Under the pieces are notes generated by a model. It was not told the origin of the DNA, ran no database searches, and saw nothing but the letters and a program-made list of their open reading frames with translations. From positions 3,032 through 62,547 of the forward strand of contig RDYN01000034.1 in assembly GCA_004293365.1 (NCBI GenBank): a stretch of DNA of 59,516 bases, read 5' to 3'. Shown in pieces: positions 45,820-52,979 of this stretch. Both the position numbers and the translations under genes were made by a program. Positions within the stretch are counted from its first letter, which is position 1. Each line of letters opens with the position of its first letter. This DNA is from Oscillatoriales cyanobacterium. Lineage in GTDB: Bacteria > Cyanobacteriota > Cyanobacteriia > Cyanobacteriales > Microcoleaceae.

Positions 45820-48483
45820 ATGTCCTTCGTTGGCTTGCACATTCACAGCGACTACAGCCTGCTAGACGGCGCGTCTCAGCTACAGCAGCTAGCTGAACGG
45901 GCGGTGGAATTGGGGATGCCCGCGATCGCCCTTACAGACCACGGCGTGATGTACGGGGCGATCGAGCTAATCAAAGTTTGCCGAAATAAAAATATCAAGC
46001 CCATCATTGGCAATGAAATGTACGTCGTCAACGGCGACATCGAAGTCAAAGTTCGAGGTAGAAGAAAATACCATCAAGTTGTTTTAGCTAAAAACACCCA
46101 AGGCTATAAAAACTTAGTAAAACTTACCACAATTTCCCATTTAAAAGGAATGCCCGAAAGAGGTATTTTTGCCCGTCCTTGCATCAACAAAGAACTCCTC
46201 AAACAATACTCCGAAGGCTTAATTGTTACCAGCGCTTGTTTGGGTGGCGAAGTTCCCCAAATGATTCTGCAAAACAAGCTAGATACTGCCCGCGAAGTTG
46301 CCAAATGGTATAAAGAAGTATTTGGAGAAGACTATTATATAGAAATTCAAGACCACGGTTCCCAAGAAGACCGCATGGTTAATGTTGAAATCGTCAAAAT
46401 TGCCCGCGAATTCAAAATTCAAATAATTGCCACCAATGATTCTCACTATATTTCCTGCAACGACGTAGAAGCTCACGATGCTTTGTTGTGCATCAACACC
46501 AACAAACTAATTGAAGAAGAAAAGCGGATGCGCTACAGCGGCACAGAATATCTGAAATCCGCCGACGAGATGGCGCAACTGTTTCGAGATCATTTAGATG
46601 ATGAAACGATCAAAGAGGCGATCGAAACCACCCTAGAAGTAGCAAATAAAGTATCAAGATACGAACTCACAGGAGAAGCTCGGATTCCCACAATCCCAAT
46701 TCCCCCAGAACATACCGCCGATACCTATGTAGAAGAAATATCTTGGCTAGGACTATTAGAACGCCTCAAAGCCCGTACCAGAAATGAAATCCCCCCAGTC
46801 TACAAACAAAGACTAGAATATGAGCTAAAAATGATTCAGCAGATGGGTTTTTCTGAATATTTTTTAGTCGTCTGGGATTACATGAAATATGCTAGAGACA
46901 ACAATATTCCCGTCGGGCCAGGACGAGGTTCTGCCGCAGGTTCTTTAGTTGCCTACGTCCTCAATATTACCAACATAGACCCGGTACACCACGGACTGCT
47001 ATTCGAGAGATTTCTCAATCCCGAACGTAAATCGATGCCAGATATTGATAGCGATTTCTGCATCGAAAGACGGGACGATATGATTAAATATGTTACAGAC
47101 AAATATGGTACAGACCGCGTAGCGCAAATTATTACCTTTAACAGGATGACATCAAAAGCTGTTTTGAAAGATGTTGCCAGAGTTTTAGGTATTCCCTACA
47201 AAAAAGCCGATGAGATGGCGAAAATGATTCCAGTATCGCGGGGGAAACCGGAAAAACTCAAAGTAATGATTTCCGATAATACACCTGCACTAGAATTTAA
47301 AACTAACTACGAAAATACAATTTGTATTAATGCCGAAACTGGTACTGACGTTCCAGTACGTCAGTGGATTGACATGGCGATTCGTATTGAAGGAACCAAC
47401 AAAACCTATGGTGTTCACGCCGCCGGCGTGGTAATTTCTTCTGTCCCCCTTGATGAAATTGTACCGTTGCAAAAGAATGATAATGGTGCTGTAATCACCC
47501 AATATTTCATGGAAGATTTGGAATTTTTGGGTCTACTAAAAATGGACTTTTTGGGATTAAAAAATTTAACAACGCTTCAAAAAACCGTTGATTATGTTAA
47601 GCAAACTCAAGATATAACTATCAATGCTGAAGGCTTACCTTCTGACATAGAACGCAGAGCTCAAGAGACATTTACTAGGAACAACAAGTTACCCGGTGAT
47701 GTAGCAAAGACTTATCAACTATTAGAAAAAGGAGATTTAGAAGGTGTTTTTCAGCTAGAATCTTCTGGGATGCTGGATGTAGTAAAAAAAATCAAACCTT
47801 CTTGTCTGGATGATATTTCTTCTATTCTGGCGCTTTATCGTCCCGGCCCGCTGGATGCTGGTTTGATTCCACAATTTATCGATCGCAAACACGGTAGAGA
47901 AGTGGTTAAATACGACCATCCGCTGTTAGAACCGATTTTGAAAGAGACCTATGGAACGCTTTGTTTCCAAGAGCAAATTATGCGGATGGCTCAAGATTTG
48001 GCGGGCTATTCTTTAGGTCAAGCTGACTTGCTGCGCCGCGCCATGGGCAAGAAGAAGGCTGATGAAATGCAGAAGCAAAAGGAAACATTTATTGATGGGG
48101 CAACTAAGAATGGTGTCGCTCAAAGAGTTGCCGAAGAGTTGTTCGGGCAAATGCTACAATTCGCTGAATATTGCTTGAGCTATGACACGAAGATATTGAC
48201 TGTGGAATATGGGCCGATGGCTATTGGCAAAATCGTTGAGGAAGAAATTGAATGTCATGTTTACAGTGTTGATAATAATGGCCATATTTATACACAGCCA
48301 ATTGCACAGCGGCATCGCCGAGGTCAGCAGGAGGTCTTTGAGTATTGTCTGGAAGATGGCTCGATAATTCGCGCGACAAAAGATCACAAGTTTATGACTG
48401 CTGACGCTCAAATGCTGCCCGTTGACGAAATCTTTGAAAAAGGATTAGACTTAAAACAAATCAACTCCATCTCACATCTATAA
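45820..48483 (+). CDS. dnaE: DNA polymerase III alpha subunit, N-terminal part with N-intein
   Basis: 887 codons. Residues 1-784 are the N-terminal part of the replicative polymerase: PHP domain ([14 protein letters not shown]), polymerase core with [16 protein letters not shown] and the catalytic PDIDSDF, ending [12 protein letters not shown]. Residues 785-887 are an N-intein: [20 protein letters not shown] with the catalytic Cys1, then [13 protein letters not shown], and [20 protein letters not shown] with the TxxH-like block. It stops after SISHL, matching the end of known split DnaE N-inteins (about 102 residues). Protein splicing with the product of 49257-50975 is needed to make full DnaE. 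Confidence 0.96.
48172..48480 (+). other. DnaE N-intein (103 residues)
   Basis: Coding segment of the N-terminal split-intein half, from Cys1 (TGC at 48172) to the last sense codon. It is a close relative of Npu/Ssp DnaE N-inteins, as seen from [21 protein letters not shown] and DHKFMT. Cys1, Thr and His of blocks A and B are present, so it looks active. Confidence 0.95.
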
Positions 48484-48484
48484 A

Positions 48485-49264
48485 ATGTATCTCGACTATA
48501 GGAAACTAAAATCGGAACACAAGGAACAAATCATTTCTGCTTTTAATCAGGGCATGGAGTGTCGAGAAATTCCTAACTACCTTGGGGTAAGCGAGAGAGC
48601 GGTTTCAAGAGTTTTAAAAGAAGCTGACATTAATACTAAGCGGCGAAACCGCTATACTTTAAATGAAAGCTATTTTGATGTAATTGACTCTCAAGCTAAA
48701 GCCTATTTATTAGGTTTGATAGCTGCCGATGGCTGCGTTACTCAAACTAATTATGTAGCTTTTGAATCTATTGACAAACAACTTACAGAAATGCTCAGCA
48801 GAGAGCTACAATATTCGGGTGAGATTAGAATTGTTCAGCCTCAAAATTATGCTCCTCACTACCGAATAAATTTTTCTTCTGAAAAGCTGGCAAGCTCTTT
48901 ACATGCCTACGGCATCATAACAGGAAGAACTTTTTCAGGAGTTACTTATTTCCCTAACTCAAAATATTTAGCGTCTTATGTGTTAGGCTACTTTGACGGT
49001 GACGGTTGTGCTTATGCAAACAAAGGCAGGAGTGGCGGTTTAGTGTGCATCGTCGGTTCCTTTGAATTTGCCTGCGAACTAGCAAGGCACTTAGGCATGG
49101 GTTCTGTACAAGAGCATCAATTTAAAAAAGTTTATTATTGGAGAATATTTAGTCGAAAAAACATACAAGCGTTCTATGATTTTGTGTATCAGTACCCCAG
49201 ATTGGGGCTGCAACGAAAAAAGACTAAAATTGAGGATATTCTCAGGAGTTACAAACATGGTTAA
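48485..49264 (+). CDS. LAGLIDADG homing endonuclease between the dnaE intein halves
   Basis: 259 residues. N-terminal helix-turn-helix (SAFNQGMECREIPNYLGVSE, about 18-37) then two LAGLIDADG helices: AYLLGLIAADGCVT (73-86, acidic D82) and YVLGYFDGDGCAY (165-177, acidic D173). Both active-site acids are kept, so a functional single-chain endonuclease is likely. Its ATG follows the stop of the N-intein gene by one base, and its end overlaps the start of the C-intein gene by 8 bases. The frame differs from both. Such enzymes cut intein-free alleles at the insertion point and drive copying; the predicted target is the dnaE sequence around TTCGCTGAATAT|TGCTTTAAT. Confidence 0.93.
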   Translation: MYLDYRKLKSEHKEQIISAFNQGMECREIPNYLGVSERAVSRVLKEADINTKRRNRYTLNESYFDVIDSQAKAYLLGLIAADGCVTQTNYVAFESIDKQLTEMLSRELQYSGEIRIVQPQNYAPHYRINFSSEKLASSLHAYGIITGRTFSGVTYFPNSKYLASYVLGYFDGDGCAYANKGRSGGLVCIVGSFEFACELARHLGMGSVQEHQFKKVYYWRIFSRKNIQAFYDFVYQYPRLGLQRKKTKIEDILRSYKHG

Positions 49265-49364
49265 AATTATTAGTCGAAAATCACTAGGAACTCAAGAAGT
49301 ATATGACATTGGTGTGGAACGAGAACATAACTTTATCCTAGAAAATAGTCTTGTGGCCTCTAAT
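49257..49364 (+). other. DnaE C-intein (36 residues)
   Basis: Second half of the split intein: GTQEVYDIGVEREHNFIL with blocks F and G, ending VASN just before the Cys of the C-extein (TGC at 49365). Length equals known DnaE C-inteins (36 residues). The terminal Asn and following Cys needed for splicing are present. Confidence 0.95.
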
Positions 49365-50975
49365 TGCTTTAATAAATCCCATTCAATGGCCTATGCCTAT
49401 ATCACTTATCAAACTGCTTATTTAAAAGCAAATTTTCCTGTTGAATACATGGCTGCACTGCTGACAGCTAACCGAGGCGATCAGGAGAAAGTACAGAGAT
49501 ATATTGCTAATTGTATCAAACTGAAGATTGACGTTGAGCCACCTGATATTAATGGTTCTGAACTTACTTTTACGCCACTTCCTATGGAGATGACAAAGGC
49601 AGAAAAACATAAAATTTTGTTTGGAATTTCGGCGGTCAAAAATGTTGGTGAAGGGGCAATTGAGAATATTTTGGAGGCGCGAAAGGAAGGGGGTAATTTT
49701 AAGTCTTTACCAGATTTGTGCGATCGCGTAAATCTACATTCTGTCAACCGTCGCGCCCTAGAAGCCTTGATTCACTGCGGTGCTTTTGATAAAATCGTAC
49801 CCAACCGCCGTCAATTAATAAATGACCTTGAAGGGGTGATGAAATGGGCCCAAGACCGCAAAAAAGATCGGGAAAGCGGTCAAGGTAATCTGTTTGACTT
49901 GTTAGGTGGGAACAGCTTTGCTAAGTCGGCGAATACCTATGATTCTGCCCCAAAATCAAAAACTGTGAAAGATTTTGACACGCAGGAAAAATTGCGTTTA
50001 GAAAAAGAATTGCTGGGTTTTTATGTATCAGAGCATCCCCTCAAGTTTCTGCTTCAATCCAATCAAGATCCAGATGTGGTGACTCTCGCACAGTTAGCCG
50101 AGAAAAAGGGTAAAGTATCCGTTATTGTCATGCTCAATGCTATCAAACTTGTAGTGACAAAAAAAGGCGATGCGATGGCAATTTTGCAGTTAGAAGATTT
50201 GACACACCAAATCAAGGCTGTTGTGTTTCCCAAGAGTTATGAAGAAGTTAAACAGCATATTACAGAGAATGCTATCTTACAGATTAGTGGGAAAATTGAG
50301 AAGGATGGCGAGGAAATTCAGATCATTGTAGATACTGCAAAGCCTGTAGAGGAACCAAAGGTTACAGAGGAAATCGAGAACCCAGTACCGGAAACACAAA
50401 ATTCTTGGGCGGCGCCATTGCAAACACAAAATTCTTGGGCTCCGCCATCGGAAACACAAAATTCTTGGGCTCCGCCATCGGAAAAACAAAACTCTTGGGC
50501 GACTCAGCCGGAAAAACAAAACTCTTGGGCGAATCAACCAGTCAACTTTGGACGATCGACAAAACCAGTGGAAGTTACAGAAATGGTGATTGTCAAGTTT
50601 ACACCGCCGCAGGTGCAAGATGTCAAAAACCTCAATTCTCTGAAAGCTATTTTGCAAGAACTTTCCAATCGTGGAGAGGATGCTAGCGTTTCTGTCGGAG
50701 GAATCGTTGTCGGTGAATATTCCTGTCAGCCGCTTCGCATCAAGCGTCAATTGTGGGTACAAGATGGCGATGGCGCTGTTAGCCGTCTCAAGTCGGCGGG
50801 ATTTGATGCTTGGGTTTTTCCTCTCGACAGTCGGGGGGATGCTGCGATATTTCGAGAAGTTCGATCGCAACTTAACATACATTCTTGGGCCAATCGCTTA
50901 ATTGACGCAGATGTCGATCGCATATCCCAGTATCTCAACTATCTCGCCCAACTAAACAAACGCCCGCCAAATTAA
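49257..50975 (+). CDS. dnaE: DNA polymerase III alpha subunit, C-terminal part with C-intein
   Basis: 572 codons from ATG 49257, which has AGGAG 8 bases upstream; the frame is open back to 49176 but the standard C-intein Met is at 49257. Residues 1-36 are the C-intein (MVKIISRKSLGTQEVYDIGV, then EREHNFILENSLVASN, ending Ala-Ser-Asn). The next residue is the +1 Cys of CFNKSHSMAYAYITYQTAYL. Then the polymerase C-terminal part with helix-hairpin-helix, the OB-fold (VIVMLNAIKLVVTKKGDAMA) and the tau-binding tail. A five-fold ten-residue repeat (QNSWA units) interrupts the linker near residues 380-428. It overlaps the convergent kinase gene by 24 bases. Confidence 0.95.
   Translation: MVKIISRKSLGTQEVYDIGVEREHNFILENSLVASNCFNKSHSMAYAYITYQTAYLKANFPVEYMAALLTANRGDQEKVQRYIANCIKLKIDVEPPDINGSELTFTPLPMEMTKAEKHKILFGISAVKNVGEGAIENILEARKEGGNFKSLPDLCDRVNLHSVNRRALEALIHCGAFDKIVPNRRQLINDLEGVMKWAQDRKKDRESGQGNLFDLLGGNSFAKSANTYDSAPKSKTVKDFDTQEKLRLEKELLGFYVSEHPLKFLLQSNQDPDVVTLAQLAEKKGKVSVIVMLNAIKLVVTKKGDAMAILQLEDLTHQIKAVVFPKSYEEVKQHITENAILQISGKIEKDGEEIQIIVDTAKPVEEPKVTEEIENPVPETQNSWAAPLQTQNSWAPPSETQNSWAPPSEKQNSWATQPEKQNSWANQPVNFGRSTKPVEVTEMVIVKFTPPQVQDVKNLNSLKAILQELSNRGEDASVSVGGIVVGEYSCQPLRIKRQLWVQDGDGAVSRLKSAGFDAWVFPLDSRGDAAIFREVRSQLNIHSWANRLIDADVDRISQYLNYLAQLNKRPPN
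50391..50535 (+). repeat. 30-base in-frame repeat inside dnaE C-terminal gene
   Basis: Five units of 30 bases, each encoding ten residues with QNSWA at their centre (ETQNSWAAPL, QTQNSWAPPS, ETQNSWAPPS, EKQNSWATQP, EKQNSWANQP). The middle two units are almost identical in DNA. It sits in the linker after the OB-fold and before the tau-binding tail. Confidence 0.9.
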
Positions 50976-52979
50976 CATTTCATCCCCATCGCCACCGGTG
51001 ACTAAAGTTTGACCGTCAGGACTAAAAGCCACCGGATTGCGCCCCACAAGACTCGACAAACATAGGCCTGTTTGCAAGTTCCACAGTTTAACAGTACCAT
51101 CTCGACTGCCGCTAGCCATAGTTTCGCGATCGGGACTGATAGCCACCGAAATCACCTCGTCAGAATGCCCGATCAAAGTATTAATCAATTCCCCGGTATC
51201 GGGATTCCACAATTTTATCGTAGCGTCCGCACTGCCGCTGACAATCATCTTACCATCTTGACTAAAGGCGATCGCATAAACCCAATCAGAATGTCCGACA
51301 AAAGTCCGCACGCTCTCTCGCATCCCTAGGCGCCAAACCTTAATAGTTTTGTCCGCACTACCGCTAGCCAGCATCATACTTTGAGGGCGGAAACTCACAG
51401 ATAAAACCTTGTCAGAATGGCCCGAAAGTTTGTGAACTAAAGCTCCGTTGTGCTGGTTCCACAACTTAATACTCTTGTCCCCGCTCGCACTCGCAATGGC
51501 TCCTCCATCGCAGCTAAAAGCCACCGAATATACGGAGCCGTAGCGGTGACTGTACGGCGACCCATAATCGCTGTAAAACTCGCGAATCATCGCCTTTTTA
51601 TCCAGCTTCCACTCAATAACTTTTCTGTCAAAACTGCCGCTAACCAGCATTCTCCCATCGGGGCTGATAGCCACCGCATCAACCGTCGCGCAATGACCGA
51701 AAAAAGTATGGATTAATTCTCCTGTTTGCAGGTTCCACAGCTTAATTGTTTTATCATCGCTGGCGCTAGCGAGAATATTGCCTTGAGGGCTAATTGCAAT
51801 AGCATTAACCGAGTCTGCATGACCGTGAAGAATGCGCGCGCACTGCCAGTTATGAGACAATAATTGCGGGTTGCTAGCTGCGGTTGTCACCTGCACATTC
51901 TGGGGTGGCGCGGCAGAAACGGCGGTTGCTGTCGTTGTCTGCGAGTGAGTTACAGACGAATTAATGGCTATTTTGGTGCGATAGTTATAGGCAATTTGCG
52001 ATCGGGGATATTGCCCAAATTTTACCAAGTCGTGCAGCACTTCTGCGGCGGATTGATATCGCTCTCTTACCGAATCTTTGAGCAATTTATTTAAAATAGT
52101 TGTTAATTTTTGGCTGACTTTGATGCCTTTTTGTGCTAAGTGCGATCGCCAAATCCATTTGCATTCCAAAGCATCGAACAAATCATTCAGCACCGCCCCA
52201 GTCAGCAAGTGAATGCAGGTAACGCCCAAACTGTAAAGGTCGCTCGCCGGATAGGCCTTACCGCTGCGGATTTGTTCGATCGGCGCATAGCCAGCAGTTC
52301 CCGTTATCGTACCAGTTTTCGCCTCAGAAATAGCGCTAATCTGCTTGGCCACCCCAAAATCTACCAGCACAAACTGACCCCCCCTGGGCTTCCCCTGTAC
52401 AGCAGGACACCCGGCCCGAATTATCCCTTTTTTTCCATTACCAAAAGTCGAGAGAGTTTGGGAATTTCTCCGCAGAATATTTTCCGGCTTAATATCCCGA
52501 TGAATCACCTGCTGCTCGTGAACAAATTGCAAAACAGGCAACAAATTAATCAACAATTCCCAAATTTGTTCCTCGCTAAAAGCTCCCCGCTGCTGCAACT
52601 CCTGAAACAAATTATTTCCTTCGATTAACTCTTCGACAAGATACAGGTGTTTTGCATCTTCAAAAGAAGCCAGCAAACTTGGAATCTGCGGGTGTTCCCC
52701 GAGTTCGTAAAGCCGATGAGCTTCTTGTTTAAACAGTGCAGTTGCCTTTTCTAATTCTGCCTTTTCTTGAAGGTGGGGAAAAAATTGTTTGATGGCGCAG
52801 CGAGTTTTCAACCTATCTTCATCGACAGCTAAAAAAGTGCGGCCAAATGTTCCTTCACCGATAGGTTGAAGGGCGCGGTAACGCTCTTTCAGCAGCAATT
52901 TTGAGCCGCACGCCAGACAAAACTTGGTTGAATCAGGATTCTGCGGCTTCTGGCAATGGGGATTGAGGCAATAGCTCAT
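50952..52979 (-). CDS. Serine/threonine protein kinase with WD40 repeats
   Basis: 675 residues. N-terminal zinc-ribbon-like C4 (CLNPHCQ..., FCLACGSK), then a Hanks-type kinase: IGEGTFGRTFLAVDED, VIHRDIKPENIL, LVDFGVAKQ, GTAGYAPIEQ. About 75 residues of linker follow, then seven WD40 blades from about residue 378 (HADSVNAIAISPQGNILASA, ending LWNL). Between HRD and DFG there is an extra segment (TLSTFGNGKKGIIRAGCPAV) not usual in the family, probably a repeat insertion. It is a soluble kinase with a propeller scaffold; targets unknown. Its 3' end overlaps that of the convergent dnaE gene by 24 bases. Confidence 0.93.
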   Translation of the reverse strand: MSYCLNPHCQKPQNPDSTKFCLACGSKLLLKERYRALQPIGEGTFGRTFLAVDEDRLKTRCAIKQFFPHLQEKAELEKATALFKQEAHRLYELGEHPQIPSLLASFEDAKHLYLVEELIEGNNLFQELQQRGAFSEEQIWELLINLLPVLQFVHEQQVIHRDIKPENILRRNSQTLSTFGNGKKGIIRAGCPAVQGKPRGGQFVLVDFGVAKQISAISEAKTGTITGTAGYAPIEQIRSGKAYPASDLYSLGVTCIHLLTGAVLNDLFDALECKWIWRSHLAQKGIKVSQKLTTILNKLLKDSVRERYQSAAEVLHDLVKFGQYPRSQIAYNYRTKIAINSSVTHSQTTTATAVSAAPPQNVQVTTAASNPQLLSHNWQCARILHGHADSVNAIAISPQGNILASASDDKTIKLWNLQTGELIHTFFGHCATVDAVAISPDGRMLVSGSFDRKVIEWKLDKKAMIREFYSDYGSPYSHRYGSVYSVAFSCDGGAIASASGDKSIKLWNQHNGALVHKLSGHSDKVLSVSFRPQSMMLASGSADKTIKVWRLGMRESVRTFVGHSDWVYAIAFSQDGKMIVSGSADATIKLWNPDTGELINTLIGHSDEVISVAISPDRETMASGSRDGTVKLWNLQTGLCLSSLVGRNPVAFSPDGQTLVTGGDGDEMLIWRAFV

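Follow-up and report, generated by a model that had tools for sequence, protein, structure and literature searches.

Adjacent DnaE split-intein halves flanking a free-standing LAGLIDADG endonuclease cistron in cyanobacteria: a probable mobile element and its decay products

The split inteins of cyanobacterial DnaE, the alpha subunit of DNA polymerase III, were reportedly described by Wu in 1998 and Caspi in 2003, Ssp DnaE and Npu DnaE among them. These classical split inteins are regarded as fixed and lack an endonuclease. A free-standing homing endonuclease (HE), of the EDxHD type, was reportedly found by Dassa in 2009 together with split inteins in phage-like metagenomic 'fractured genes'. 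The present analysis concerns a stretch of 59,516 nucleotides (the window) from an Oscillatoriales cyanobacterium of the Microcoleaceae (assembly GCA_004293365.1, contig RDYN01000034.1, positions 3,032 to 62,547, forward strand), in which an HE cistron of the LAGLIDADG type lies between adjacent halves of the DnaE split intein. The locus has in common with Ssp DnaE and Npu DnaE the host gene, the insertion site, the split point, an N-intein of ~103 amino acids (aa) and a C-intein of 36 aa. The classical halves are separated and without an endonuclease, whereas in the window they are neighbours on the two sides of an HE, with a patchy occurrence in the genus. The locus is thus a variant and not a typical member of the cyanobacterial DnaE split inteins, for which distant loci and the lack of an endonuclease are the criterion. 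With the fractured genes, as they are said to be organised, the locus shares a separate HE cistron between split intein halves; it differs from them in its chromosomal dnaE host, its LAGLIDADG_3 nuclease, its empty sites and its decay series.

The halves of the classical DnaE intein are given as genes of their own at different places in the genome (PMC7765530). The nrdA of Aeromonas phage Aeh1 forms two genes owing to an inserted HE gene, mobE, according to the text of another paper, while its figure legend names a split by an intein (PMC3653736). There too a host gene is halved around an HE gene, but the gene is a different one and the host is a phage. No description of an HE between DnaE intein halves was found in the licence-limited literature, as far as it was available, and such loci may be known beyond it.

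The locus is very probably a mobile three-cistron intein element (dnaE-N::N-intein, free-standing HE, C-intein::dnaE-C), the decay of which yields adjacent, fused or separated halves. The element is documented by its anatomy, its conservation across genera, its empty sites, a tree conflict pointing to horizontal movement and its decay products. The three cistrons would be translated in series by coupling, since stop and start codons nearly touch and the last two cistrons overlap. The intein halves would trans-splice DnaE, the HE would cut intein-less dnaE at FAEY|CFNKSH, and repair of the cut would copy in the whole three-cistron unit. Upon decay of the HE, the halves would stay adjacent, fuse in frame to a cis mini-intein or drift apart; the drifted-apart state would be the classical split DnaE intein, a derivation documented in the Planktothrix lineage and proposed in other lineages.

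Anatomy of the locus and its conservation across genera

The features of the locus are given in Table 1. The N-intein begins at codon 785 of dnaE-N, and a single base (48484) lies between the stop codon of dnaE-N and the start of the HE open reading frame (ORF), which runs from ATG to TAA. The start codon of dnaE-C is the ATG at 49257, and the three cistrons occupy three frames (start positions modulo 3 = 1, 2, 0). Every coordinate of the original prediction held, including the 103-aa N-intein, the one-base gap, the 259-codon ORF, the 8-base overlap, the 36-residue C-intein and the use of three frames. The N-intein matched NCBIfam TIGR01445 (E 3e-14) and solved DnaE inteins in the PDB (E down to 5e-50), and the C-intein matched TIGR01443 (E 3e-6). 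Cys1, a TxxH, the terminal Asn and the +1 Cys were all read in the halves; we take these to be the standard intein motifs, the TxxH being that of block B. The insertion site in dnaE, FAEY|CFNKSH, is that of the solved DnaE inteins, to which both halves are homologous. A group I intron around the HE was rejected, its catalytic core giving no Rfam match with E up to 1 in window positions 47000-50500.

Table 1. Position and content of the cistrons and intein parts in the window
Feature	Position	Strand	Description
dnaE-N	45820..48483	+	DNA polymerase III alpha N-part, 784 aa, then N-intein; NF007079, E 0
N-intein and its stop codon	48172..48483	+	103 aa, starting with Cys1; TIGR01445, PDB DnaE inteins
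LAGLIDADG HE cistron, free-standing	48485..49264	+	259 aa, N-terminal helical region and two LAGLIDADG halves
HE/dnaE-C overlap	49257..49264	+	8 bases; HE stop codon inside dnaE-C start (ATGGTTAA)
C-intein	49257..49364	+	36 aa, last residue Asn, +1 residue Cys; TIGR01443
dnaE-C	49257..50975	+	C-intein and DNA polymerase III alpha C-part

The HE was matched by Pfam LAGLIDADG_3 in two stretches (E 2e-11) and aligned by profile with the putative homing endonuclease 2dch (E 2.5e-7). The motif acids D82 and D173, and also D171, were invariant across an alignment of 23 sequences. The AlphaFold2 model (mean predicted local distance difference test score, pLDDT, 87.5) revealed an N-terminal helical region and two similar alpha/beta halves; helix-turn-helix matches at the N-terminus were weak and below curated cut-offs. 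With two motifs bearing their acids and two similar predicted alpha/beta halves, the protein has the features of a LAGLIDADG homing endonuclease. The ratio of nonsynonymous to synonymous substitution rates (dN/dS) had a median of 0.15 over 36 pairs, so the HE is under purifying selection and is maintained.

An HE match (E<=0.01) was obtained in 25 of the 291 genomes sampled from the order. In 15 of these the HE is near full length (G041 with an internal stop, G258 without the last residues), in three it is in pieces (G028, G147, G253) and in four it is a C-terminal fossil (G044, G045, G053, G178); weak matches to the N-terminus only, in the remaining three (G090, G271, G272), were set aside. 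Outside the window's own genus, the N-intein lies directly before the HE in all 13 HE-bearing genomes queried, finished Gloeocapsopsis dulcis included. Of the 24 HE loci examined, 21 allow the HE to be followed as far as dnaE-C, and every one of the 21 has an overlap of exactly 8 bases; the count includes several HEs with a break further upstream and one pair of loci (L088 and L100) that may come from a single genome. The remaining three are G258, where the HE frame ends 24 bases early, the complete chromosome of Microcoleus vaginatus HSN003, where an insertion breaks the frame, and G031, at a contig end. The junction of the three cistrons is therefore not a matter of chance.

It is extremely improbable that the arrangement is an assembly artefact or a dead second copy. 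The window's own assembly, of completeness 99.99, is a draft in 218 contigs, which is the point in favour of an artefact. Nevertheless, the three-cistron arrangement was also present in finished Oscillatoria nigro-viridis PCC 7112 (G003) and finished G. dulcis (G187), as well as, with the insertion in its HE, in M. vaginatus HSN003, and an artefact was rejected; comparison with finished genomes was the check that the original prediction had proposed. A second full-length dnaE elsewhere, which would have made the locus a dead copy, was not found in a search of the own assembly, where dnaE-N, HE and dnaE-C gave one match each, and this candidate was likewise rejected.

Polymorphism within the genus and tree conflict

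The site was surveyed in 29 genomes of the window's own genus. In 13 of them dnaE is intein-free and continuous across the site, the empty alleles reading FAEY|CFNKSH with nothing lost. The HE lies between the halves in 10 genomes and is uninterrupted in eight. Adjacent halves without HE occur in four genomes (G002, G008, G010, G021), and a fused mini-intein of 145 aa in one (G009). In G005, which is 74% complete, there was no convincing dnaE; its weak match (E 6e-4, 31% identity) was not accepted. An HE without an intein was found in no genome of this survey. In the draft G024 (670 contigs) dnaE is found both occupied and empty, on contigs C553 and C393, and the additional intein-free contig may represent a strain mixture or two alleles. 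The HE-less gaps of G002 and G010 (L212, L213) contain short repeats sharing the motif GGCGACGCACC, perhaps a small mobile repeat. In G028, of M. vaginatus type, IS630-type and IS66-type transposase genes lie inside the HE (L216, 3716-6200).

The distribution was compared with an rpoB tree of 24 of the 29 genomes. Intein presence requires six changes on this tree, and a single clade of intein-bearing genomes was rejected in the approximately unbiased (AU) test (p-AU 2e-48; 24 genomes). The rpoB topology was rejected by the HE alignment (p-AU 1e-6; 8 genomes) and by the intein halves (p 0.0005; 7 genomes). Of 28 pairs, not independent of one another, 25 have a lower synonymous divergence (dS) in the HE than in rpoB; for G023-G024 the values are 0.044 vs 0.478. 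Movement between lineages would be the simplest reading of the conflict between HE and rpoB. As the HE is under purifying selection and its tree rejects that of rpoB, the three-cistron unit behaves as a mobile element.

Several observations weigh against this reading. The HE is broken in two of the 10 HE-bearing genomes (an in-frame TAG in G020, the insertion in G028), its dS exceeds that of rpoB in three of the 28 pairs (G000-G011, G024-G004, G026-G004), and rpoB itself may recombine. Alternatively, the HE could be a dead passenger without role, and the patchiness the result of loss from an intein ancestral to all Microcoleus; the two broken copies fit this, as does the absence of the HE, or its reduction to a remnant, in G002, G008, G010, G021 and G009. 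Such an explanation is very improbable in view of the low median dN/dS and of the HE phylogeny at odds with rpoB, and the exact intein-free alleles of 13 genomes could have come from loss only if precise deletion or allele replacement had occurred again and again.

A second alternative is that the HE is a later, independent parasite which inserted between halves already split and adjacent, the gap serving as a safe site and the split having another cause. Membership of the HE in a phage and intron family (see below) is in line with this, as is the marginal rejection of the HE tree by the intein halves (p 0.048; 7 genomes), a point that also counts against the mobile-element reading. The constant junction with its overlap in 21 of 21 loci, the single clade formed by the cyanobacterial HEs tested, the lack of any HE without intein in the genus and the grouping of G011 with G004, common to HE and intein halves and contrary to rpoB, make a later parasite unlikely, and movement of the three cistrons as one element is preferred.

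Fossils and separated halves

Recognisable HE fossils were found in genomes with separated halves. In Planktothrix agardhii NIES-204 (G044) the halves lie 2.26 Mb apart on one contig, in G045 they are 1.63 Mb apart on opposite strands, and in G053 they are on different contigs of a draft; the three genomes share one genus code (Planktothrix group). In each, about 30-40 C-terminal HE residues stand directly upstream of dnaE-c and overlap it as in intact loci, with in-frame stops in G044 and G045. The scores of these fossils were 45-47 bits, and 0 of 100 shuffles reached each. Under the same genus code there are also a genome with the three-cistron locus uninterrupted (G049) and two with a fused mini-intein (G047, G048). 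Because the 3' end of the HE survives directly upstream of dnaE-c, the separated form in the Planktothrix lineage evidently derives from the HE-bearing three-cistron form, and these remnants suggest how the split-intein system of biotechnology may have arisen. Deletion derivatives were also observed: G275 keeps both HE ends around the deletion, and G002 and G178 keep the 3' end. Contiguous DnaE mini-inteins of 133-145 aa occupy the same site in G047, G048, G195, G183, G232 and G009 (L204, L209, L203, L207, L208, L211), and the genera concerned also have split forms.

An intein tree was built from 75 sequences (84 genomes or records listed, of which 69 gave a sequence, plus six fused inteins; the nine left out were G031, G064, G112, G133, G149, G182, G240, G279 and G316). 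This tree, a construction proposed in the original prediction, revealed that HE-bearing, fused and separated forms are intermixed, with three such clades having supports of 98, 96 and 87. The same prediction had taken the locus for an intermediate or retained ancestor of the DnaE split intein. As a source of separated halves this view stands for at least one lineage, given the fossils of the three Planktothrix-group genomes, but a retained ancestor is too simple for the window's own genus, given the patchy occurrence of the element there and the disagreement of its trees with that of rpoB.

The extension to other lineages meets contrary evidence. For 3' fossils, 37 stretches were supplied and 36 tested, G240 being left out as its C-intein was not located. 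No significant fossil was obtained at 18 other dnaE-c loci (the N-half lies elsewhere in 16, the exceptions being G194 and G300, where it was not located), in nine genomes with halves 1.7-9 kb apart, or in the adjacent HE-less G008, G010 and G021. Downstream of dnaE-n, no 5' fossil was found in G044, G045 and G053 (best 25, 19 and 20 bits) or in 15 other genomes. Fossils in classical loci were rejected as a general feature: the stretches upstream of 20 dnaE-c and downstream of 15 dnaE-n yielded only G178, whose halves proved adjacent. Hence, for the classical lineages, descent from the HE-bearing form rests on the intein tree, in which several deep branches are poorly supported and a single clade of separated inteins is rejected weakly (p 0.029). 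In the nine genomes with halves 1.7-9 kb apart, the order and strand of the halves are kept; the two gaps inspected hold a kinase gene (G068) and CHAT/iSTAND/FGE-sulfatase genes (G220).

Origin of the endonuclease

In a tree of 77 rows, the 12 HEs included from cyanobacteria group in a single clade, with a support of 100 in the Shimodaira-Hasegawa-like approximate likelihood ratio test (SH-aLRT), within a large phage and plasmid family. The HE matched 155 phage and plasmid records (144 + 11), and the annotated contexts of seven were read. Six of the seven sit inside dnaE-like genes and one (L401) is not detectably inside dnaE. A group I intron match was obtained in three: Jeotgalibacillus L398 (63.4 bits, above the curated cut-off) and Brevibacillus L397 (34.9 bits, E 6e-6, below the curated cut-off of 50), both at the site of the intein, and Cytobacillus L402 (35.2 bits), at reference residue 223. 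The intron point in Brevibacillus is by eye 4 nt 3' of the intein point. The introns L397 and L398, from Bacillota plasmid dnaE, carry homologous LAGLIDADG HEs (33% and 26% identity), and their site equals that of the window intein within a few nucleotides or codons; they depend on RNA splicing and have no intein, whereas the window has an intein and, by Rfam, no intron. Intron HEs and intein HEs of one family thus share a target site.

The HEs of Lactococcus phage AM9 and of one IMG/VR locus (L387) are also at the site of the intein, and other dnaE-borne relatives lie near reference residues 223 and 557. Among 80 viral loci kept of 90, the best HE relative had 34% identity, and a virus-borne element was rejected on this ground. 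Similarity to dnaE within the available stretch was seen in 13 of the 80, on both sides of the HE in six of these (L360, L361, L363, L364, L369, L387). These six, together with L396-L400 and L402, interrupt phage or plasmid dnaE near residues 223, 557 and 599, suggesting that these positions are hot spots for introns.

The HE was most likely recruited from this phage and intron family, whose members are found in dnaE again and again, and recruitment from an intron is likely, judged from the sequences compared. A direct link between the cyanobacterial HE and the same-site intron HEs was unsupported, as same-site HEs do not cluster; the tree resolves no sister of the cyanobacterial clade, and L387 has a very long branch. 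Recruitment is favoured over release of a nested domain because six of the seven relatives read are inside dnaE, two of them in group I introns at the site.

The original prediction had favoured release: the HE would once have been nested in a continuous DnaE intein ORF of 398 codons and have become its own cistron through a frameshift or stop codons. The sum 103+259+36 approximates a full intein, the HE stands where inteins presumably hold their nested nuclease, and a 415-aa continuous DnaE intein in Desulfonema is said to be related to the cyanobacterial ones (PMC6390638). Release is nonetheless improbable. The HE has its own start and an additional predicted N-terminal helical region with the weak helix-turn-helix matches. 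The proteins related to it are HEs of phages, plasmids or group I introns, and several of these lie inside dnaE. Outside the cyanobacteria, the homologue closest to it among the phage and plasmid collections (33%) belongs to a group I intron of dnaE. A one-ORF DnaE intein with a nested HE at this site was not seen among the loci read, no search having been aimed at one.

The balance leans slightly towards a wider reading, in which the cyanobacterial split DnaE inteins, the tools of biotechnology included, are decayed remains of a three-cistron mobile element that is still living. The HE would stem from dnaE-targeting intron or phage HEs, its insertion and not the breakage of a mini-intein would have made the split, and separation would have followed HE loss repeatedly. 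At this locus a split intein has kept its endonuclease, departs from the phylogeny of its hosts as a mobile element would and has left fossils that can be recognised. How natural split inteins arose can now be tested, since empty, occupied, decayed and fused alleles coexist in one genus and a second genus has occupied, fused and separated ones. Such loci are also a source of new inteins with adjacent halves and of natural DnaE-class mini-inteins in cis.

Two further features were observed beside the element in the window. The linker of dnaE-C contains a 30-bp tandem repeat of 4.8 copies (50389-50531) encoding NSWAPPSETQ-like repeats. On the minus strand, a 675-aa ORF (50952-52979), kinase-like and WD40-like by sequence reading, shares 24 bases with the end of dnaE-C.

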